The notes beneath the pieces were generated by a model that searched no databases, had not been told where the DNA came from, and saw only the letters and a program-made list of their open reading frames with translations. Positions 18,288 through 62,569 of a DNA stretch of 64,000 nucleotides are shown one piece after another (position 1 is the stretch's first letter; every line of letters starts with the position of its first letter). This DNA comes from an uncultured Flavobacteriaceae bacterium (GTDB lineage Bacteria > Bacteroidota > Bacteroidia > Flavobacteriales > Flavobacteriaceae), in contig CALSMD010000006.1 of NCBI GenBank assembly GCA_943787365.1, positions 261,984 through 325,983 of the forward strand. Direction: 5' to 3'. A program made the translations under genes and the position numbers.

Positions 18288-18359
18288 AGCGAAAGACGAG
18301 ATTTGAACTCGCGACCCCCACCTTGGCAAGGTGATGCTCTACCCCTGAGCTACTTTCGC
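18288..18359 (-). tRNA. tRNA-Gly (anticodon GCC)
   Basis: Minus strand GCGAAAGTAGCTCAGGGGTA with anticodon loop CTTGCCAAG (GCC), T-arm GAGTTCAAATCTC and 3' CTTTCGC acceptor pairing with the 5' GCGAAAG. Confidence 0.95.
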
Positions 18360-53758: not shown

Positions 53759-53971
53759 AATTGTATTTGTTAGTTATTATTATTTTTTGATTGATTTCAA
53801 ATTTATTTAAATTAATTGTAAAAAGCAAGTTATTTTGATTTTAATATGGAGACTTTTTTGGAAAAGCAATGCATTTGATCTCATGTCGTTATACAGCCTT
53901 TGAATTAGCTGAAAACAGACAATGGAAACTATAATGTAGTTAGTTTTTAACAACTGACGAAGAGCGCTATT

Positions 53972-53997
53972 AAAAAAGAAACCCACCTATTGGTGGG
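53972..53997 (-). terminator. terminator of the tRNA-Ala gene
   Basis: CCCACC (53982-53987) pairs with GGTGGG (53992-53997) around TATT; the A-run 53972-53977 gives the minus-strand U-tract, 38 bp beyond the tRNA 3' end. Confidence 0.75.
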
Positions 53998-54034
53998 CTT
54001 TAGTTAAATTTATGCAGTGTAGCGGTGACACTAG

Positions 54035-54108
54035 TGGAGAAGATCGGATTCGAACCGACGACCTCTTGACTGCCAGTCAAGCGCTCTAGCCAACTGAGCT
54101 ACATCCCC
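54035..54108 (-). tRNA. tRNA-Ala (anticodon GGC)
   Basis: Minus strand GGGGATGTAGCTCAGTTGG, anticodon stem-loop CTTGA-CTGGCAG-TCAAG (GGC), T-arm CGGTTCGAATCCG and 3' acceptor CTTCTCC. The acceptor stem has one T-T mismatch and a G-T pair. Its 5' half and upstream sequence are repeated 4 kb away, marking it as an integration target. Confidence 0.92.
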
Positions 54109-54142
54109 TTTTTTTGATTATCTTCTTAGAGATTGATGCGGT
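54066..54142. repeat. 77-bp direct repeat, left copy (attachment-site-like)
   Basis: Identical over 77 bases to 58111-58187. It starts at the palindromic anticodon stem-loop (TTGACTGCCAGTCAA) and covers the 5' half of the tRNA plus 34 bp upstream of it. It marks the left end of element 1. Confidence 0.9.
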
Positions 54143-54215
54143 CACTTAATTTTAAATACTTAAGAACAGTCCAAATTTACTAAAAACTGACAGACTTTGA
54201 CAGACATATTCTGTT

Positions 54216-54268
54216 CTTTTCGCTTTTAACCCTTTTCTCAACACGCTTTGTTCCAAAGCTACTGAGCT
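54216..54268. repeat. 53-bp block shared by both elements, left copy
   Basis: Matches 58250-58302 with one mismatch in 53 bases. Between the 77-bp repeat and this block lie element-specific short repeats (TGACAGA-type here). Possible integrase arm-binding region. Confidence 0.75.
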
Positions 54269-54346
54269 AATATGTACTAAACTTGAACTAATTCTATGAA
54301 ATACTTTTTGTATTTTTGAATTATACTTTAACTTTTAAATTAACCA

Positions 54347-54520
54347 ATGAGAAAAGAATTAGAAGAAATAGCGAAGAAAACAGACAGAGAACTACAAGAG
54401 GGTATTTACTTTAATATAAGACATAACTTAAGAACAAATAAGAGCATTAAGGCTTGGGTTACTATCATAGCTATTATACAACTTTTAGCAGTACTTGGTG
54501 CTATAATAGTAGCTACATAA
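54347..54520 (+). CDS. 57-residue membrane protein
   Basis: ATG 54347 to TAA 54518-54520. A charged N-terminal half (MRKELEEIAKKTDRELQEGI) precedes a C-terminal transmembrane helix (about 36-56, AWVTIIAIIQLLAVLGAIIV). A TATTTTTG box lies at 54311-54318. Function unknown; it is the first cargo gene of element 1. Confidence 0.65.
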   Translation: MRKELEEIAKKTDRELQEGIYFNIRHNLRTNKSIKAWVTIIAIIQLLAVLGAIIVAT

Positions 54521-54594
54521 ATGTCTTAATAAAGTGATTAATAATTAAATAGCCACTCAATTAGAAACATTGATAAAATACTAACTGAAAAACT

Positions 54595-55029
54595 ATGAAA
54601 AAAACATTTTTATTTTTCTCAGCCATACTCATCTTCTCTTGTAGTAGTGATGATAGTTCAAACAGTAATAATGACAACAATAATTCTTCAATTATCGGAT
54701 ACTGGAACTTTTATTCTACTCTAGGAGTTACTTTATGTGGCTCTACTGTTAATGATACTGTATATTATGACAGTGAATGCTATTGTGATGGACTATTTAT
54801 TGAATTTAATTCTGATGGTACATTTAGAGATTATTATGATTTTATAAGTGCTGGTAATCCAGGCTGTTCTGAAGAAATTTTAATAGGGACTTGGACTAAT
54901 TCTGGCAATGAGTACCAATTAAATTATAATGTTGGTTATACAGACATTTACACAATTAATATAGTTGATGATAATACTATGAGTTATGAATTTGATGGTA
55001 CAGTGTATACCTATAAAAAAGTATTATAA
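54595..55029 (+). CDS. small lipoprotein, lipocalin-like
   Basis: A 144-residue protein with a lipoprotein signal (lipobox Cys16 in ILIFSCSSDD), a Ser/Asn/Asp-rich spacer (about 17-33), and a compact region with GYWNFYSTLG, YCDGLFIEFNSDGTF and LIGTWTNSGNEYQLNYN. These resemble the lipocalin-like lipoproteins of Flavobacteriia. Cys residues (about 48, 61, 63, 90) could form disulfides. It is one base before the next gene. Confidence 0.75.
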   Translation: MKKTFLFFSAILIFSCSSDDSSNSNNDNNNSSIIGYWNFYSTLGVTLCGSTVNDTVYYDSECYCDGLFIEFNSDGTFRDYYDFISAGNPGCSEEILIGTWTNSGNEYQLNYNVGYTDIYTINIVDDNTMSYEFDGTVYTYKKVL

Positions 55030-55030
55030 A

Positions 55031-56167
55031 ATGAAAAAACTAATCTTACTCTCCGCTTTATTCATCATCGCTTGTTCAGATGACGAAGGCAATCCTTGTA
55101 TTTATGAGCCAACTCTAACTACACAAGCTGCTACTGATATTACAGAAACCTCAGCCACTTTAAATGGTGTTATAAGTATCGTTTCAGAGAATTGTGACGT
55201 ACCTAACAATACTGAACAAGGGTTTGTTTATTCTACTGAAATACAGCCCACATTAGAAGATATTCAAGTTAATGTTAATGGGACTAATATCTCTACAACT
55301 ATTGAGGGTTTAACGCCTAATACTACTTATTACGTAAGGGCATTCTTAACTAATAATTTAGGGGACTTTTATGGGGATGAGGTTAGTTTCACTACTACTG
55401 ATATTCCTTGTGATGTTGTTTATTTAGATGAAAATGGAGTTACTATAAAGGCTTGCCCTGATGCTAATGTTGGGGATGTAGGTACGGTTAATGGGGTTGA
55501 GTATACTATTGTGGATAGAGATATGCTCGACCTAATGATTGAGAATGAAGAGGATGTTACTAAAGTGTGTACATCACTGATTAGCGATATGTTATATCTG
55601 TTTTCTGATACGCCCTTTAATCAAGATATTTCGTCTTGGGATGTGAGCAATGTGACTAATATGGGTGGTATGTTTTCTGATACGCCCTTTAATCAAGCCA
55701 TTGGAAGTTGGGATGTAAGTAGTGTAACCACAATGGCATTTATGTTTTTTAATACTCCATTCAACCAAGACATAGGGAATTGGGATGTTAGTAGTGTGCT
55801 TGTAATGAATAGTATGTTTTCTGATACGCCTTTCAACCAAGACTTAAGTAATTGGGAAGTTGAAAATGTAGCTACTATGATGTATATGTTTAACAGTTCT
55901 AATTTTAATCAAGACATTGGAAATTGGGATGTGATTAGTGTAATTAATATGAAATTTATGTTTAGTGGCTCTTCATTTAATCAAGATATTAGTTCTTGGG
56001 ATGTTAGTAGTGTAGGAATAATGCAAGGTATGTTTTATGATACACCTTTCAACCAAGACTTAAGTAATTGGAGTGTAGGAAATGTAACTTCTTGCAGTAG
56101 TTTCAGTCAAGGGGCATCAGCTTGGACACTACCTCAACCTAACTTCACAAACTGTAATCCTAACTAA
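55031..56167 (+). CDS. BspA/DUF285 surface lipoprotein with Fn3-like domain
   Basis: A 378-residue protein from ATG 55031, one base after the previous stop. Lipobox Cys15 (LFIIACSDDE), a fibronectin-like domain (about 30-125, ITETSATLNGVIS, NTTYYVRAFLTNNLGDFYG), then about seven 25-residue DUF285/BspA repeats (about 190-370) with the FNQDISSWDVSNVTNMGGMF pattern. BspA repeats mediate binding to host or surface ligands. It lacks a T9SS sorting domain, so export differs from the related protein of element 2. Confidence 0.88.
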   Translation: MKKLILLSALFIIACSDDEGNPCIYEPTLTTQAATDITETSATLNGVISIVSENCDVPNNTEQGFVYSTEIQPTLEDIQVNVNGTNISTTIEGLTPNTTYYVRAFLTNNLGDFYGDEVSFTTTDIPCDVVYLDENGVTIKACPDANVGDVGTVNGVEYTIVDRDMLDLMIENEEDVTKVCTSLISDMLYLFSDTPFNQDISSWDVSNVTNMGGMFSDTPFNQAIGSWDVSSVTTMAFMFFNTPFNQDIGNWDVSSVLVMNSMFSDTPFNQDLSNWEVENVATMMYMFNSSNFNQDIGNWDVISVINMKFMFSGSSFNQDISSWDVSSVGIMQGMFYDTPFNQDLSNWSVGNVTSCSSFSQGASAWTLPQPNFTNCNPN

Positions 56168-56262
56168 AAACTAACTACTCTACTAATAGGAAGTGGTAAT
56201 TCTGTAGCTTCTACTTCATAGCTTCCATTGTCTGTTTTTAATGGTTCTGTTTGGTCTATTTG
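56164..56262 (-). pseudogene. C-terminal coding remnant shared with element 2
   Basis: Minus-strand frame reads IDQTEPLKTDNGSYEVEATE, then LPLPISRVVSF and TAG at 56166-56164, with a stop upstream at about 56270. Element 2 holds the same sequence (59854-59934) with mostly synonymous differences, so both derive from a once-coding gene downstream of the terminase-like gene. Confidence 0.6.
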
Positions 56263-56600
56263 GAACTATTTCCACCTGCCATATTACTAAAATTAAAGTT
56301 CTCGTCTAATACATTGTTATGTGTTTCAAGCACCTCTCCATTGTCTCCAATTATATTGATTTGAAACTCTCTTGGAGGTTCTTCATTTATATGTTTCTCA
56401 ATTGATAGCTTAGGTAAAGTATGCTTCAAAGCGATGTCTAATAATTTTAGTTTTTGTGTATTTGAAAGAGTGTTATAATCTATGTCCTTTAGTATGTGTG
56501 TTATTAGCGTTTTAAGGTCGCTACGGAGGTCTATGCTTAATAATTTACCTCTTTTACTAATCTTTCCTGCTTCGCTTGCTGTCGTTGAGTTAAATCCCAT
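56256..56600 (-). CDS. small terminase-like / phage-type protein
   Basis: A 114-residue protein with a basic start (MGFNSTTASEAGKISKRGKL), a helical middle (about 25-65) and a LPKLSIEKHINEEPPREFQI segment. The start and the LPK helix resemble small DNA-packaging or DUF-type phage proteins. The element carries no other capsid or packaging genes. A truncated homologue lies in element 2 (59935-60077). Confidence in a terminase role is low. Confidence 0.55.
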   Translation of the reverse strand: MGFNSTTASEAGKISKRGKLLSIDLRSDLKTLITHILKDIDYNTLSNTQKLKLLDIALKHTLPKLSIEKHINEEPPREFQINIIGDNGEVLETHNNVLDENFNFSNMAGGNSSK

Positions 56601-56663
56601 AAATCTGTGTTATTTTGTGTTATAATATATAAAGAGATATAAGTTCTTTTGTGTTTTAATAAA

Positions 56664-56813
56664 GGTGGTTGCAAACCACCGCACATAAACAACTAAAAAC
56701 AGAATACACAACCTTTGTATGTGTTTAATAATAAAACATAGTTATCCTGTATAGTAAATTTAAAGTCTTTTTATATTTATGAAGACATATTCATACGGGC
56801 GTCTGAAACGCCC
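56664..56813. other. two tight hairpins in gene-free DNA
   Basis: Region 56601-56981 has no gene. It holds GGTGGTT-GCA-AACCACC (56664-56680), a perfect 7-bp stem with a 3-base loop, and GGGCGT-CTGAA-ACGCCC (56797-56813), a perfect 6-bp stem. They may be terminators, small-RNA parts or recombination sites. Confidence 0.5.
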
Positions 56814-56981
56814 AATTAATTAAATATAAAGAATTTTTAGAAGACTGATAAGACTAAGACTTTTATAAAAAAGAATTGAGTAAAGTTAGTAAATTTATCG
56901 CAGAAAATCAAGTATTTAACCTGTAAAATAGAATAAAGTTATTGAACAATTATTAACGTCTTGTAGTGTTTTACTTACAAA

Positions 56982-58055
56982 CTAAACCATAGGCATATCT
57001 TCTTCTTTTAATTCAGCTATTTCTAAACCACGTAAATAAGTCAATGATACATTAATAGATGAATGCCCCATAGCCTTCTGTAGCTTGGTTATAGAGCCTG
57101 TTCTCTTAAAGATTTCTATAGCTCCTGAGTGCCTGAAAGAGTAGAGTGTTTGGTCTTGTTCAAGCAGTTTAGAAACCCTCTTAAATCGACCCCAAAGTGT
57201 CTTAAAATAGTCTTCATTTAATGGTTTTGTAGTGTCTGTGAATATATTGTGTTGAGGTTGACCTTTAACAAGCAATTCTCTAATATAAATAGGCACAGGA
57301 ACTATTCTGTTCTTGCCAGACTTATTTCTATTCCCAGACAAATGAATGTATGTAAGGTCATCTGAAAAGTCAGACCACGTAAGTTCCCTTATTTCTCTAT
57401 GGGGTCTTAATAAACATCCATAGGTCATTAAACAACACAGAAACAAGTTATCACTAAACAACTTAATCTCATTAAGGATGAGGCTTATATCCTTGTAAGG
57501 TTTGTGTAGTTTTGCCTTTGTTTTCTTTGCTTTTATGCTTTCCATAGGATTGCTATCCATACCTATGTTTCTTGCTTCATTAATAAGCACATTTAAGTGA
57601 CGTTTAATCGTATTATACGACACACCTAAAGCATAGTGGTTTAGATAAGATTTAACATCCTTAGAAGTGATGTTTTCATCAGTTAAGTGAGATACAAAAC
57701 CATCATAAACAAACCTCAACATAGACTTGTATTTGTCTGAATAGTCTCCTTTTAGTTTGTTGTCTAAAGCTAACTTTAAATACTGCTTATCAGACTTGCA
57801 TAGTACTCTTACAGGCTCTTGAACACTTAAGCCACTTGTTATGAATTTAAACACCTCTGCAGCTAAGAGTTGTGCTATCTCATAGCGTTTAGCTACAGGG
57901 TAAGAATTAGGAAAGAGATTAGAATTAATTTTTGAACCATTAAACAACCTATACCGTTTACCATTATTATAAAATACTACATAGAAACGTTGCTTGTTAT
58001 CAGACTTAATTTTAGGGTATTTTACACTCATTTTTGACACACTTTTGACAGACAT
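56982..58055 (-). CDS. tyrosine recombinase (integrase) of element 1
   Basis: A 357-residue integrase. N-terminal arm-binding part, SAM-like core-binding domain (about 85-165), and catalytic domain (about 175-350) with R217 (CLLRPHREIREL), R308 in YSFRHSGA, H331 in AMGHSSINVSL and the nucleophile Y340; the usual first His of the HxxR box is Tyr305. It catalyses insertion and excision at tRNA-Ala. Its 5' region contains TTTTGACA-type repeats resembling the left end of the element. The intact tetrad suggests an active enzyme. Confidence 0.95.
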   Translation of the reverse strand: MSVKSVSKMSVKYPKIKSDNKQRFYVVFYNNGKRYRLFNGSKINSNLFPNSYPVAKRYEIAQLLAAEVFKFITSGLSVQEPVRVLCKSDKQYLKLALDNKLKGDYSDKYKSMLRFVYDGFVSHLTDENITSKDVKSYLNHYALGVSYNTIKRHLNVLINEARNIGMDSNPMESIKAKKTKAKLHKPYKDISLILNEIKLFSDNLFLCCLMTYGCLLRPHREIRELTWSDFSDDLTYIHLSGNRNKSGKNRIVPVPIYIRELLVKGQPQHNIFTDTTKPLNEDYFKTLWGRFKRVSKLLEQDQTLYSFRHSGAIEIFKRTGSITKLQKAMGHSSINVSLTYLRGLEIAELKEEDMPMV

Positions 58056-58110
58056 TAATATTATCTGTTCTTGAGTGTCTGAAAATCAAGTATTTGTGTA
58101 CTATTAACAT

Positions 58111-58187
58111 TTGACTGCCAGTCAAGCGCTCTAGCCAACTGAGCTACATCCCCTTTTTTTGATTATCTTCTTAGAGATTGATGCGGT
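58111..58187. repeat. 77-bp direct repeat, right copy
   Basis: Exact copy of 54066-54142: 5' half of tRNA-Ala plus 34 bp. The tRNA 3' half is missing here, so this copy cannot give a tRNA. It marks the junction of elements 1 and 2. Confidence 0.9.
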
Positions 58188-58249
58188 ATATAGAAATACT
58201 GTTTGCGAATTTATAATATTCTTGGCACTTTAATGGCACTAATATGGCA

Positions 58250-58302
58250 CTTTTCGCTTTTAGCCCTTTTCTCAACACGCTTTGTTCCAAAGCTACTGAG
58301 CT
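58250..58302. repeat. 53-bp block shared by both elements, right copy
   Basis: Matches 54216-54268 except one base. It is preceded by three GGCACTT-type repeats (58234-58256), in place of the TGACAGA-type repeats of element 1. Confidence 0.75.
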
Positions 58303-58373
58303 TCGGATGTACTAGTTATGTACAAAAAATCATAATAAAATTAATTACATTTGAATTATAAACCAATTTAATT

Positions 58374-59765
58374 ATGAAAAATTTATTTTATTTATTTTTT
58401 GCCTTATTCATCTTCTCTTTGAGTTACTCACAAACTCAAATTACAGATGCTAATTTTCAAGATGCTATAAATACTTGTTTATCCACTAACCCAGAAAATG
58501 GTCTATGTTCAGAGAGTGGGTACGGAGAAATGCCAGACTGGGATGTTAGTGATGTTACAGATATGAGCTCAGCGTTTTATGAAGCATCATCTTTCAATGC
58601 AGATATTAGTGGATGGGATGTGAGTAATGTGAATAATATGAACTCTATGTTTGGTGGGAATGCAATTACAACTCCAGCATTTAACCAAGACATTAGTTCT
58701 TGGAATGTGGGCAGTGTAACCACGATGGAATATATGTTTGAAAATGCTTCGAGTTTCAATCAAGATATTGGCTCTTGGGATGTTTCTAGTGTGACTAATA
58801 TGGTTGGTATGTTTAGTCAAGCGCGGTCATTTAATCAACCATTAAACGATTGGGATGTTTCTAGTGTGACTAATATGGTTGGTATGTTTAGTCAAGCGTC
58901 GTCATTTAATCAACCATTAAATGATTGGGATGTTTCTAGTGTGACCGATATGGGATGGATGTTTTCCCTTACTTCTTTCAATCAACCATTGGATAATTGG
59001 GATGTTTCTAGTGTTACTAATATGATTAATATGTTTCAAGCGTCGTCATTTAATCAACCTCTAAATAATTGGGTCGTTTCTAGTTTGACTGATGCGTCGC
59101 GTATATTTATTTTATCATCATTTAATCAACCATTAAATGAGTGGGGTGTTTCTAGTGTGACTAATATGGCTGGTATGTTTGGGGGGACACCATTTAATCA
59201 ACCATTAAATGAGTGGGATGTTTCTAGTGTGACTAATATGGCTGGTATGTTTGGGGAGACACCATTTAATCAACCATTAAATGATTGGGATGTTTCTAGT
59301 GTGACCGATATGAGTAGTATGTTTTATGAAGCATCATCTTTCAATCTAGATATTAGTTCTTGGGATGTTTCGAACGTGATTGATATGAGGTATATGTTTT
59401 ATCTGAGCACTTTTAATCAAGATATATCAAGTTGGTGCGTTACAAACATTAGTTCAGAACCGCTTGAGTTTAGTAGTAATACGTTAATAGAAAGTTATGA
59501 ACCTGTTTGGGGTACTTGTCCAACTGCTGGTGTAGATGACCATAGACAATTAGTAATCTCAATTTATCCAAATCCCGTTAAGAACACTCTAACCATTAAT
59601 GGGCTGGTTGTTAAAGATATTATTATCTATTCTGTTCTTGGAAAAGTGGTATTGAAGATGAGCAATCAAAACTCAATTGATGTAAGTTCACTTTCGAAAG
59701 GGGTTTATTTTATTAAGGTTTCTGACGGCATAAATTCATCTACTAAACAATTCATAAAAAACTAA
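58374..59765 (+). CDS. BspA/DUF285 repeat protein with T9SS type A sorting domain
   Basis: A 463-residue exported protein. Signal peptide (cleaved after SYSQ), about thirteen DUF285 repeats (about 45-370, pattern FNQPLNDWDVSSVTNMVGMF) and a C-terminal T9SS type A domain (SIYPNPVKNTLTINGL, GVYFIKVSDGINSSTKQFIK). DNA of adjacent repeats is nearly identical (58790-58960, 59110-59300), which suggests recent expansion. TACATTTG at 58346-58353 may be its -7 box. It is the cargo of element 2 and is exported by T9SS, unlike its lipoprotein relative in element 1. Confidence 0.92.
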   Translation: MKNLFYLFFALFIFSLSYSQTQITDANFQDAINTCLSTNPENGLCSESGYGEMPDWDVSDVTDMSSAFYEASSFNADISGWDVSNVNNMNSMFGGNAITTPAFNQDISSWNVGSVTTMEYMFENASSFNQDIGSWDVSSVTNMVGMFSQARSFNQPLNDWDVSSVTNMVGMFSQASSFNQPLNDWDVSSVTDMGWMFSLTSFNQPLDNWDVSSVTNMINMFQASSFNQPLNNWVVSSLTDASRIFILSSFNQPLNEWGVSSVTNMAGMFGGTPFNQPLNEWDVSSVTNMAGMFGETPFNQPLNDWDVSSVTDMSSMFYEASSFNLDISSWDVSNVIDMRYMFYLSTFNQDISSWCVTNISSEPLEFSSNTLIESYEPVWGTCPTAGVDDHRQLVISIYPNPVKNTLTINGLVVKDIIIYSVLGKVVLKMSNQNSIDVSSLSKGVYFIKVSDGINSSTKQFIKN

Positions 59766-59853
59766 ATGAAAAGAGCAATTCATATAGTTAACTTTTTAAA
59801 TTACTACGGATTATACTTTGATTTGAAAATTAGCAGAACTAATTATATTAGAA

Positions 59854-59934
59854 TTAGATTGTTTTAAACCTCTCAACTCTACTATTAGGCAAAGGCAAGT
59901 CAGTAGCTTCTATTTCATAGCTTCCATTGTCTGT
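59854..59934 (-). pseudogene. C-terminal remnant, counterpart of 56164-56262
   Basis: Minus-strand frame reads TDNGSYEIEATDLPLPNSRV, then ERFKTI and TAA at 59856-59854. It follows in frame after the stop of the terminase-like remnant. Most base differences to element 1 are synonymous, so the frame was once under selection. Confidence 0.6.
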
Positions 59935-60077
59935 TTACCCTGCCAAATCTTTGAACTTAAAGTTGTCTAAACTTTTTCTGTTTACCTTTTCGTTTCCGTT
60001 ACTATCTATGATAGTGATTTGTATGTCTTGTGGTATATCTTTAGATATACGTTGTTCTATCGATTGTTTAGGAAATG
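59935..60077 (-). pseudogene. truncated terminase-like gene remnant of element 2
   Basis: Minus-strand frame reads FPKQSIEQRISKDIPQDIQI and later KSLDNFKFKDLAG, then TAA. It matches the C-terminal half of the intact 114-residue protein (LPKLSIEKHINEEPPREFQI). The N-terminal half has been replaced by sequence carrying the promoter of the next gene. Confidence 0.75.
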
Positions 60078-60090
60078 AACGTTATACAGC

Positions 60091-60121
60091 TTTGCATTTT
60101 AATTAATTTTTTTTAAATTTG
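60091..60121 (+). promoter_or_regulatory. Bacteroidota-type promoter
   Basis: TTTG at 60091-60094, 19-base spacer and TAAATTTG at 60114-60121, both exact to consensus. It drives the barrel protein starting at 60152. Confidence 0.75.
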
Positions 60122-60151
60122 TTTAAACAAAACTATTTAAATTATTCACAA

Positions 60152-60706
60152 ATGAAAAAATTATTTACAATTACAATGGCATTAGTGGCTTTCACTATTG
60201 GTGCCCAAAATGTCACTTTTGGTGCAAAAGCAGGTTTAAACTTTGCAAGTATGGTAGGCGATGATGCAGAAGGCCTTGATGGAAGAACCTCATTTCACTT
60301 AGGTGCTACTGCAGAAATTGAAATCTCAGAGTCATTTTCCATTCAACCTGAATTATTGTATTCTGGACAAGGTTTTACTGCTGATGGGGATGTTACAGGA
60401 AAAGTAGATTATATAAATCTTCCTGTAATGGCTAAATTTTATGTTGCAGATGGCTTTAGTATTGAAGCAGGGCCTCAAATTGGCTTCCTTGCAAGTGCTA
60501 AATCAGAAGTTGATGGAAATAGTACAGATATTAAAGACAATTTAAAATCTACAGACTTTGCTTTGAATTTAGGGGCAGGCTACAAACTTGATTCGGGATT
60601 GAATTTTGGTCTTCGTTATTCAATGGGACTTACTGATGTTCCTGACGTAGATTCTGACGGTTTCAAACACAGCGTAGTTCAACTTTCTGTAGGATATAAC
60701 TTTTAA
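60152..60706 (+). CDS. PorT-family outer-membrane beta-barrel protein
   Basis: A 184-residue protein from ATG 60152 (MKKLFTITMALVAFTIGAQN). A signal peptide precedes an eight-strand barrel (TFGAKAGLNFASMVGDDAEG, SIQPELLYSGQGF, ALNLGAGYKLDSGLNFGLRY) ending with LSVGYNF. Outer-membrane protein of the type annotated as 'porin family' or PorT in this phylum. It has its own promoter. It may be cargo, or host DNA captured by the element. Confidence 0.88.
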   Translation: MKKLFTITMALVAFTIGAQNVTFGAKAGLNFASMVGDDAEGLDGRTSFHLGATAEIEISESFSIQPELLYSGQGFTADGDVTGKVDYINLPVMAKFYVADGFSIEAGPQIGFLASAKSEVDGNSTDIKDNLKSTDFALNLGAGYKLDSGLNFGLRYSMGLTDVPDVDSDGFKHSVVQLSVGYNF

Positions 60707-60795
60707 ATCTTATTCATTTTAATATGATTGATAACAATTAGGGAGGGGATAACCCTCCCTTTTTTAATTACATATAAAGTTCTATTAACCGATAT

Positions 60796-61575
60796 ATGAA
60801 AAAACTACTCTTACTCTCCGCTTTATTTATCTTCGCTTGTAGTAGTGATGATGGAAGTGATGAGCAAAATGATAGTATTATTGAAACTTGTAATGATAAT
60901 TTCGTTACACAGTTTATGATATGTCGTTTTTACGAACAAGGAATTGATTCAAACAAAATAGATGTTTTTTATGAAAATAATTCTATCTCTAGCATAAATG
61001 AATATTCTTGCCAAGACTGTTCAACTGACAATTGTGAAATTGAGGAAAATTCTTGGGTAAATGAATTGATTCAGTCAGCCAATTGTGAGGATTACCCTAT
61101 TACAACATCAGGTCAAAGGATATTTAATTATAATCAAAATGGGAATTTAATATATAGCAATAATATTTTTGAGCGCTATTACACTTGGGAAAACAGTAAT
61201 TTAGTTAAGGTGGAATCATTTTTAGAGGGAGTATTAATCTCTGAGGTAACACTTAATTATAGTCAGATACTGAATAAGAGTAAATTATTTTCTGTAGCTG
61301 AGTGGAACGATAGCGGTATTACCATTTGGTTCCCTGTAGAATGGCCTATGTATGGGCGTAATAGTCAAAATTTGGTTAGCGATTGGGAATCTAAAATTTA
61401 TGACGAAAATAATAGTGAATTATATTCAGTTGTGAATACAGTTATTACTGATTATATTTTAGATAACGAAGGCAGGGTTTTAAGTGCTTATTTTATGAGC
61501 GATGGAGTTGACGTGATAAACGGAGTTGCCGTAGAAAACTCCTGGTCTTCAACCTTACAGTTTAGCTACGATTAA
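60796..61575 (+). CDS. lipoprotein of unknown function
   Basis: A 259-residue protein with a lipoprotein signal (Cys15 in LFIFACSSDDG) and a Cys-rich segment (NEYSCQDCSTDNCEIEENSW, about 72-91), followed by a strand-rich region with repeated short YxxNxN motifs. The first 20 residues (MKKLLLLSALFIFACSSDDG) nearly match those of the element 1 lipoproteins, so these leaders share an origin. No fold is recognised. Confidence 0.75.
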   Translation: MKKLLLLSALFIFACSSDDGSDEQNDSIIETCNDNFVTQFMICRFYEQGIDSNKIDVFYENNSISSINEYSCQDCSTDNCEIEENSWVNELIQSANCEDYPITTSGQRIFNYNQNGNLIYSNNIFERYYTWENSNLVKVESFLEGVLISEVTLNYSQILNKSKLFSVAEWNDSGITIWFPVEWPMYGRNSQNLVSDWESKIYDENNSELYSVVNTVITDYILDNEGRVLSAYFMSDGVDVINGVAVENSWSSTLQFSYD

Positions 61576-61581
61576 TTAATT

Positions 61582-62316
61582 TTAAACCATAGGCATATCT
61601 ACCTCTTTAAGTTCAGCTATTTCTAAACCTCTTAAGTAGGTTAAACTTACATTTATAGATGAATGTCCCATTGCTTTCTGTAGCTTGGTTATAGAGCCTG
61701 TTCTCTTAAATATTTCAATAGCCCCAGAGTGCCTAAAAGAGTACAATGTTTGGTCTTGTTCAAGCAGTTTTGAAACCCTCTTAAAACGCCCCCAAAGTGT
61801 CTTAAAATAGTCTTCATTTAAAGGTCTTATAGTGCCTGTGAATATATTGTGATGAGGTTGTCCTTTAACAAGCAATTCTCTTATGTAAATAGGCACTGGA
61901 ACTATTCTATTCTTGCCAGACTTATTTCTATTTCCAGACAAGTGAATATAACTCAAGTCATCACTAAAGTCAGACCACTTTAATTCTCTTATTTCACGAT
62001 GAGGTCTAAGTAGACATCCGTAGGTCATTATACAACACAGATACAAGTTATCACTAAACAACTTAATCTCATCAAGGATGAGGTTTATATCCTTGTAAGG
62101 TTTGTGTAGTTTAGCTTTTGTTTTCTTTCCTTTAACACCCTCCATAGGATTGCTATTCATTCCTATATTTCTAGCTTCATTTATAAGCACACTGAGGTGT
62201 CTTTTAATTGTATTATAAGATACTCCTAAGGCATAGTGGTTGAGATAAGATTTAACGTTGTTAGAAGTGATGTTTTCATCTGTTAAGTTAGACACAAAAC
62301 CATCATAAACAAACCT
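61582..62316 (-). pseudogene. truncated tyrosine integrase of element 2
   Basis: The frame matches residues about 114-357 of the intact integrase with high identity, including CLLRPHREIREL, YSFRHSGA, AMGHSSINVSL and the Tyr nucleophile. Identity ends at about 62316 inside the core-binding domain, where DUF805 sequence begins. It lacks the arm-binding N-terminus, so it is probably inactive. Confidence 0.9.
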
Positions 62317-62318
62317 TA

Positions 62319-62534
62319 GATTCAGGGTATGGCATAATCTACACGATCACAGCCGCCCTGCATTTTTTACCTGCTTTAGGCGCCGTCGTTAGAAGATTAC
62401 ATGATGTTGGAAAAAGCGGATGGATGTATCTCATTATTTTAATTCCATTAATAGGCTTTATATGGTTGCTTGTATTGCTTACCAAAGACAGCCAAGCTGG
62501 AGACAACAAGTATGGCGCTAATCCAAAAGCGTAA
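62319..62534 (+). pseudogene. DUF805 protein C-terminal fragment
   Basis: The plus strand reads ALGAVVRRLHDVGKSGWMYL, then IILIPLIGFIWLLVLLTKDS and a DNKYGANPKA end with TAA at 62532-62534. This is the DUF805 signature (RRLHD-x-GKSGW). The N-terminal half and start are missing; they were removed by the element, and are not elsewhere in the window. Confidence 0.85.
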
Positions 62535-62569
62535 TCCATAAAAAATAGTTCTTTATTTAGAACACTTAA

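Follow-up and report, generated by a model that had tools for sequence, protein, structure and literature searches.

Small integrase islands in reversed orientation at a tRNA-Ala(GGC) gene of a Flavobacteriaceae bacterium, and a probable role of anticodon-arm symmetry

We analysed a stretch of 64,000 nucleotides (the window) from an uncultured Flavobacteriaceae bacterium, in which two small elements with tyrosine integrase genes stand in tandem at one tRNA-Ala(GGC) gene. The window is part of contig C6 of a metagenome-assembled genome (MAG) of 2.3 Mb in 8 contigs, 88.8% complete and 7.45% contaminated. The elements bring the 5' half of the tRNA gene together with the DNA upstream of it. Near relatives of the integrase are found both in this reversed orientation and in the usual one, once at the same gene and locus. 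The crossover of such islands probably takes place, in the reversed orientation, within the anticodon arm of tRNA-Ala(GGC), and the symmetry of this arm probably lets the orientation switch.

Two reversed islands at one tRNA-Ala(GGC) gene

A preliminary description, made from the sequence alone, reported a perfect 77-bp repeat which begins at the palindromic anticodon stem-loop and covers the tRNA 5' half and a further 34 bp. This was confirmed exactly. The two copies (Table 1) are 100% identical, lie 4,045 bp apart and extend from the anticodon arm to 34 bp upstream of tRNA nucleotide (nt) 1. In the reading direction of the tRNA, the region consists of the MATE gene (which reads away), a DUF805 remnant, the broken integrase 2, cargo 2, the P' arm of element 2, upstream DNA and tRNA 5' half (copy B), integrase 1, cargo 1, the P' arm of element 1, upstream DNA and tRNA 5' half (copy A), and finally the chromosomal tRNA 3' half. 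Element 1 is intact (4,045 bp), and element 2 is without the integrase 5' end and the outer attachment (att) site. At the same end of both elements, a second block of 53 bp is repeated with 98% identity (54216–54268 and 58250–58302). This block at the P' end has a small hairpin, GCTTTGGAACAAAGC, and its core occurs in five of the 78 related loci described below, in both orientations.

Two relatives were compared with the window. The genome G011, of the same species, has flanks identical to those of the window at 99.87% over 1,569 bp on the left and 99.88% over 1,692 bp on the right. Its contig C44 starts 8 bp past the tRNA 3' end and contains the whole tRNA, an element-type upstream region with a P' arm, a complete DUF805 gene and the MATE gene. 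Elements 1 and 2 are both missing between the tRNA and DUF805/MATE, and no relative of the integrase was found in this genome (82% complete) at E values up to 1e-20. The join to the left flank is deduced, because two contigs overlap by 55 bp within the tRNA. The comparison for an empty site, which the preliminary description had recommended, shows G011 to be the state without elements 1 and 2, except for an older remnant (P' arm and DUF805). Another genome, G009, was dropped as an empty site because arm-like repeats are still present upstream of its tRNA.

A sister species (L018, a place also covered by G012) carries one element of 3,941 bp at this tRNA gene and locus, where MATE is located on the 5' side. 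The identity of its two tRNA-derived ends covers nt 1–43 and stops there. The DNA upstream of its intact tRNA matches the ends of the window elements and differs from the DNA beside the displaced half; thus, the upstream DNA is borne by the element. The 34 bp upstream of the tRNA do not belong to the common att core, as the repeat of the sister species ends exactly at tRNA nt 1. In the window the identity extends further because both copies are element ends. The junctions in L018 and the comparison with G011 agree with the earlier proposal that the intact tRNA joins a chromosomal 3' half to an element-borne 5' half and upstream region. Element 1 and the L018 element each lie between the intact tRNA and a fragment of this tRNA on the same strand, and the outer fragment of element 2 is deleted. 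In the window and in L018 it is the 5' part that is displaced, and it is found upstream of the tRNA, which is the arrangement of a reversed island.

In other genera (L195, L201 and L202, from G279, G036 and G034), MATE and tRNA-Ala are separated by a gene for a universal stress protein. This gene ends about 7 bp ahead of the start of the displaced tRNA in L195, and its distance to the tRNA is about 14 kb in L201 and about 7 kb in L202.

Both orientations in one integrase family

Related loci were taken from the best 80 of 176 confirmed stretches, which correspond to 78 loci. The window, a further copy on contig C7 of the same genome, and loci from a search of 397 genomes of the family (15 matched at E 1e-90) were added. 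An integrase was given an orientation when tRNA-derived sequence lies within 260 bp upstream of its start, as is the case for 59 of the 67 integrases in the tree; eight are unlabelled. In 48 of the 59, the integrase stands beside a tRNA 3' part reading against it (usual orientation), and in 11 beside a tRNA 5' part reading with it (reversed orientation). The tree has at least seven changes of orientation under the model LG+G4 without a mixture model, with a long-branch warning of the program that includes L157. The reversed members are found in seven places: the window with L018, L019 and L025; the C7 copy (L003); L043 with L047; L050; L157; L160; and L162.

The window's own locus bears an element of the usual orientation in G001 (L032), with the displaced nt 24–75 beside the integrase. 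The 3' half of its intact tRNA has paired changes in the T-arm. The stretch shared by the element ends is nt 1–43 in L018 versus nt 24–75 in L032, and the two overlap in nt 24–43, the anticodon arm. As judged by eye, reversed elements (window, L018) and usual ones (L021, L067) have almost the same P' arm, and what lies between the core and this arm is the 3' half with a terminator-like hairpin in usual elements and the 5' half with upstream DNA in reversed ones. Further complete reversed elements are present in G320 (8,984 bp), G362 (4,275 bp) and G399 (5,570 bp, at tRNA-Met). In all five complete reversed elements the identity ends between nt 43 and nt 50. It begins exactly at nt 1 in three of them (L018, G362 and G399), and 21 and 34 bases upstream in the other two.

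Arm-like repeats were seen by eye on both sides of tRNA-Ala in G003, G014, G320 and G362, and on both sides of tRNA-Met in G399. In G003, a usual-type P' end with an inverted terminator lies within a reversed array. It is perhaps a relic of a 3'-half-for-5'-half exchange on the P' side.

Very similar integrases are located at tRNA-Asn (L021) and tRNA-Ala (L032) in one MAG (W_MB240_1). Because two such integrases in one genome use different tRNA genes, the target changes faster than the integrase. On contig C7 of the window's genome, a P' arm, upstream DNA, a tRNA-Ala 5' half, the core and a complete integrase lie together (C7:20984–22382; L098 6984–8382). The integrase shows 62% to integrase 1, and the arrangement resembles the attachment site of an element (attP) or a tandem junction. 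In C7:1–33000, ARAGORN gives no tRNA-Ala gene, only a tRNA-Asn at 18329. Integrase 3'-end fragments of about 70–170 bp occur at C7:23335, C7:28825, C6:385128, C6:386027 and C6:273033, and also in L046 and L020; such fragments scattered in arrays are perhaps scars of merged elements. At C6:383672–387553 (L097), the 3' side of a tRNA-Met is occupied by decayed copies of the integrase, and one of these copies contains 23 stop codons. This region is a dead array of the usual orientation in the window's own genome. The DNA on the 3' side of the window tRNA, with short matches to elements of the wider family (Table 1), may also be a remnant of a usual-orientation element.

Symmetry of the anticodon arm and other explanations

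According to passages of PMC8371274, the anticodon loop corresponds to the 7-bp overlap of tyrosine integrases. Every tRNA has an anticodon stem that forms an inverted repeat. Among the tRNAs of the fetched loci, tRNA-Ala(GGC) alone has complementary bases at all of the loop pairs 32–38, 33–37 and 34–36. Its overlap, CTGGCAG, is self-complementary except at the centre, and 16 of the 17 positions of the arm are self-complementary in its commonest form. Since the overlap is symmetric, pairing the other way would cost one central mismatch. The 32–38 pair is presumably conserved in tRNA-Ala(GGC) as a feature of host decoding.

Reversed and usual integrases number 9 and 3 at tRNA-Ala, and 2 and 45 at other tRNAs, with a Fisher p of 9e-7 which is too small because related rows were counted separately. 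L157 and L162 were counted as tRNA-Ala; the program labelled them Ala(AGC), and their sequence has the GGC arm.

We propose the following mechanism. The attachment site of the element would have the order P' arm, element upstream DNA, tRNA 5' half, anticodon arm, P arm and integrase. Integration would strand the chromosomal 5' half beside the integrase, and the tRNA would be rebuilt from the chromosomal 3' half and the element-borne 5' half, with new upstream DNA and probably a new promoter. A later element would use the rebuilt gene, and a tandem array would be formed. The integrase would see two inverted stem arms around the 7-bp overlap, that is, the anticodon loop, where the crossover would take place. 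The overlap of tRNA-Ala(GGC) being nearly self-complementary, partner sites could pair either way if one central mismatch is tolerated, and the orientation could switch, the 3' half being exchanged for the 5' half on the P' side. We suggest more tentatively that the arm might be an orientation-neutral landing site, at which one integrase lineage would switch between supplying the 3' end with a terminator and the 5' end with a promoter.

An exact TAnnTTTG box, which we take to be the promoter box consensus, is present in 11 of 12 element-borne upstream regions versus 1.45 expected from shuffles, the 12 regions being related sequences. In displaced regions on the chromosome side, the box is present in three of seven versus 0.91 expected. 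The element-borne upstream DNA may supply the promoter for the rebuilt tRNA. Passages of PMC8371274 state that a rebuilt bacterial tRNA keeps its original promoter with very few exceptions.

A survey independent of the integrase was performed on 369 genomes of the family, in which extra copies of the 5' half (nt 1–39) and the 3' half (nt 33–75) were counted with up to 3 mismatches. The 5' and 3' patterns matched 208 and 227 genomes for tRNA-Ala(GGC), and 342 and 324 for the control tRNA-Asn(GTT); the comparison is of genomes matched by both patterns. Extra tRNA-Ala 5' halves were detected in seven genomes, after G206 and G332 had been removed from nine as overlapping contig ends. Extra tRNA-Ala 3' halves were detected in 16, a number taken from match counts, with G102, G201, G239, G361 and G402 included without a check for contig overlap. 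For tRNA-Asn, an extra 5' half was detected in one genome (G390), a doubtful case with one copy at a contig end, and extra 3' halves in 21, likewise without the overlap check. The ratio 7:16 also differs from the 159:3,760 of the Islander collection described below (p 3e-5), methods and taxa being different. In G258 (100% complete), a displaced 5' half (116430), the tRNA (162201) and a displaced 3' half (about 182450) lie on one contig and on one strand. A profile of the window integrase family gave no match in the fetched stretches of G279, G258, G086, G034 and G036, which are other reversed sites.

Several points weigh against the proposed role of the symmetry, in addition to the relatedness of the rows and upstream regions counted above. 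The survey contrast of 7:16 versus 1:21 is weak (Fisher p 0.047, two-sided). Two of the 11 reversed integrases are at tRNA-His (L050) and tRNA-Met (L160), whose loops are not symmetric; thus, loop symmetry is not strictly required. Three usual-orientation integrases are also at tRNA-Ala. The displaced fragments of L157 (nt 1–59, into the T-loop, exact only to nt 50) and L050 (nt 1–59) exceed the anticodon arm.

The reversal could be real and the switch a rare capture, by recombination of neighbouring elements or imprecise excision. The symmetry would then be irrelevant, and the excess at tRNA-Ala would reflect shared ancestry and target preference. Such captures would account for the reversed members at tRNA-His and tRNA-Met (the latter complete in G399) and for the weak contrast of the survey, and the usual-type P' end in G003 could be a product of rearrangement. 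However, the switch took place at least seven separate times, and five of the seven reversed groups are at tRNA-Ala(GGC), which has the sole symmetric loop among the tRNAs examined. In addition, displaced 5' halves are found in G086, G258 and G279 with no integrase of the window family in the fetched stretches. We consider rare capture rather unlikely, and the switch by arm symmetry is preferred.

A second alternative concerns the outer end of element 2 only. At 62318, integrase 2 meets the middle of the DUF805 gene through an 8-bp microhomology, ACAAACCT, judged against integrase 1 as the lost part of integrase 2 is absent. By this junction, the right end appears to be a deletion. The assembly is a MAG with the contamination given above, and the contigs of G011 break inside the same tRNA with their 55-bp overlap, both of which would suit a misjoin. 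Nevertheless, 1.7 kb on the DUF805 side match G011 with 99.9% identity and stand in the expected place between the tRNA and MATE, and the microhomology lies at the breakpoint, so that a misjoin is improbable. A mere duplication within the tRNA gene, with nothing inserted, was the outcome that the preliminary description had named as overturning it. It explains the repeat and nothing else and has practically no chance, since G011 lacks both units between unchanged flanks and the one unit of L018 has its integrase beside the displaced half and junctions that are sharp, at nt 1 and nt 43.

Gene content and relation to known islands

Table 1. Features of the two elements and their surroundings, in positions of the window
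Feature	Position	Strand	Remarks
Possible usual-orientation element remnant, tRNA 3' side	53884–54033		Short matches: L032 (34 and 32 nt), L067, L133, L134, L022
tRNA-Ala(GGC), rebuilt (chromosomal 3' half and element-borne 5' half)	54034–54108	-	ARAGORN, Rfam; junctions in L018 and G011
Anticodon arm, tRNA nt 28–44, proposed crossover core	54065–54081	-	16/17 positions self-complementary; shared stretches of reversed and usual elements overlap there
Inner end of element 1: copy A of the 77-bp repeat, with anticodon arm, tRNA 5' half and 34 bp upstream	54066–54142	-	Repeat comparison; upstream part element-borne
Element 1 P' end: arm-like repeats and 53-bp block common to element 2 and usual-orientation elements	54143–54268	-	
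Element 1 cargo: 144-aa protein, lipoprotein-like start, no family match	54595–55029	+	
Element 1 cargo: DUF285/PARCEL repeat surface protein	55031–56167	+	
ORF114, small second gene	56256–56600	-	Relatives in 7/78 related loci
Integrase 1, complete tyrosine recombinase (Pfam PF00589)	56982–58055	-	
P arm between integrase 1 and core	58056–58110	-	
Inner end of element 2: copy B of the 77-bp repeat, with the displaced tRNA 5' half and 34 bp upstream	58111–58187	-	Repeat comparison
Element 2 P' end: TGCCA repeats and 53-bp block	58188–58302	-	
Element 2 cargo: DUF285/PARCEL protein with type IX secretion sorting domain	58374–59765	+	
Remnant like the DNA beside ORF114 of element 1	59866–59936	-	83% over 71 bp
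Element 2 cargo: outer-membrane beta-barrel protein	60152–60706	+	
Element 2 cargo: 259-aa protein, lipoprotein-like start, no family match	60796–61575	+	
Integrase 2, N-terminal part deleted	61582–62318	-	
DUF805 gene remnant fused to integrase 2 by probable deletion	62319–62539	+	Complete in G011, there after an element-type P' end

Each unit has a tyrosine integrase gene (PF00589 in both) and a gene for a DUF285/PARCEL repeat surface protein, and both surface proteins match the PARCEL repeat model TIGR02167 above cut-off. Integrase 1 is complete (357 aa). Integrase 2 begins at query residue 112, about 111 N-terminal residues being lost. The catalytic residues R, K, R, H, H and Y align with those of XerA, and Tyr is present at the start of box II, where His is usual. 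Family searches for ORF114 as an excisionase gave no match.

No relaxase, mating-pair, transfer or replication gene was found among the element proteins of the window by family searches. This agrees with the preliminary description, and without a relaxase or mating-pair gene among them the elements are not classed as integrative and conjugative elements. Nor are they classed as prophages or as phage satellites with virion or packaging genes, as six proteins of the window and related loci gave no PHROG match except for the integrase. A phage origin was rejected, with no tblastn match in phages and none confirmed in viral_contigs, and so was a plasmid origin, with only two distant partial plasmid matches (25–30% identity).

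The cargo of the wider family was examined in 23 delimited elements with 122 non-integrase open reading frames (ORFs) of at least 80 aa. Six of the elements are reversed, including the truncated element 2, and 17 are usual, with limits set automatically at the closest intact tRNA of the same type. DUF285 is found in nine of 63 and four of 59 cargo ORFs, the two sets of the 122. The Pfam families are the 25 commonest of 43 and of 52, and less common transfer or replication genes may be present in elements outside the window. Type I restriction R subunits are present in L163, L061 and L063, and PADLOC also matches restriction and methylase models. Thus, the earlier view of tandem elements with differing surface-protein cargo stands for the two units, each with its DUF285/PARCEL protein, with the corrections that element 2 is broken and that type I restriction systems belong to the cargo of the family.

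The window elements share the integrase family, the anticodon-arm core and a very similar P' arm (L021, L067) with usual tRNA islands, among them the usual members of the family, whereas usual islands supply the 3' half with a terminator-like hairpin and the window elements supply the 5' half with upstream DNA. Tycheposons and other small tRNA islands of marine bacteria are likewise small, linked to tRNA genes and cargo-carrying, and are likened here by description. According to the passages of PMC4383910, 3,760 of the 3,919 islands in Islander have a 3' fragment and 159 have a 5' fragment. The preliminary statement that most tRNA-targeting integrases bring the 3' half is in agreement with these numbers, and the window integrase family itself is mostly of the usual orientation. 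Islands with a 5' fragment are therefore a known minority, to which the window case adds a testable cause. Like the window elements, the 5'-fragment islands described in these passages are tyrosine-integrase islands which rebuild the tRNA with an element-borne 5' part and leave a 5' fragment. Here, in contrast, near relatives of the integrase are found in both orientations, once at the same gene and locus, and the target arm is palindromic.

The pTN3-like archaeal integrases also have their attachment site in the tRNA 5' half, whereas these are integrases of archaeal plasmids with a different organisation, and no mixed orientation is described in the passages of PMC8371274. The PARCEL/DUF285 repeat proteins are tied to mobile DNA in PMC2996958, as in the window; the mobile examples in its passages are plasmids, whereas the vehicle in the window is a tRNA island.

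A literature search over titles and abstract openings found no published report of one integrase family with both orientations, or of the palindrome idea. Nor was a simple sequence explanation found, in the parts of the literature covered, for why nearly all tRNA islands face one way. The present family gives natural pairs for this question, that is, near relatives of one integrase at one tRNA gene in both orientations. Should the orientation be set by overlap symmetry, the tRNA genes able to bear islands on both sides would be predictable from it. A host decoding feature, which we presume the 32–38 pair to be, would then create a two-way port for mobile DNA, with islands docking on either side. 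The islands replace the DNA upstream of a tRNA gene, and they are a simple vehicle which carries surface-repeat proteins and restriction systems among marine flavobacteria.

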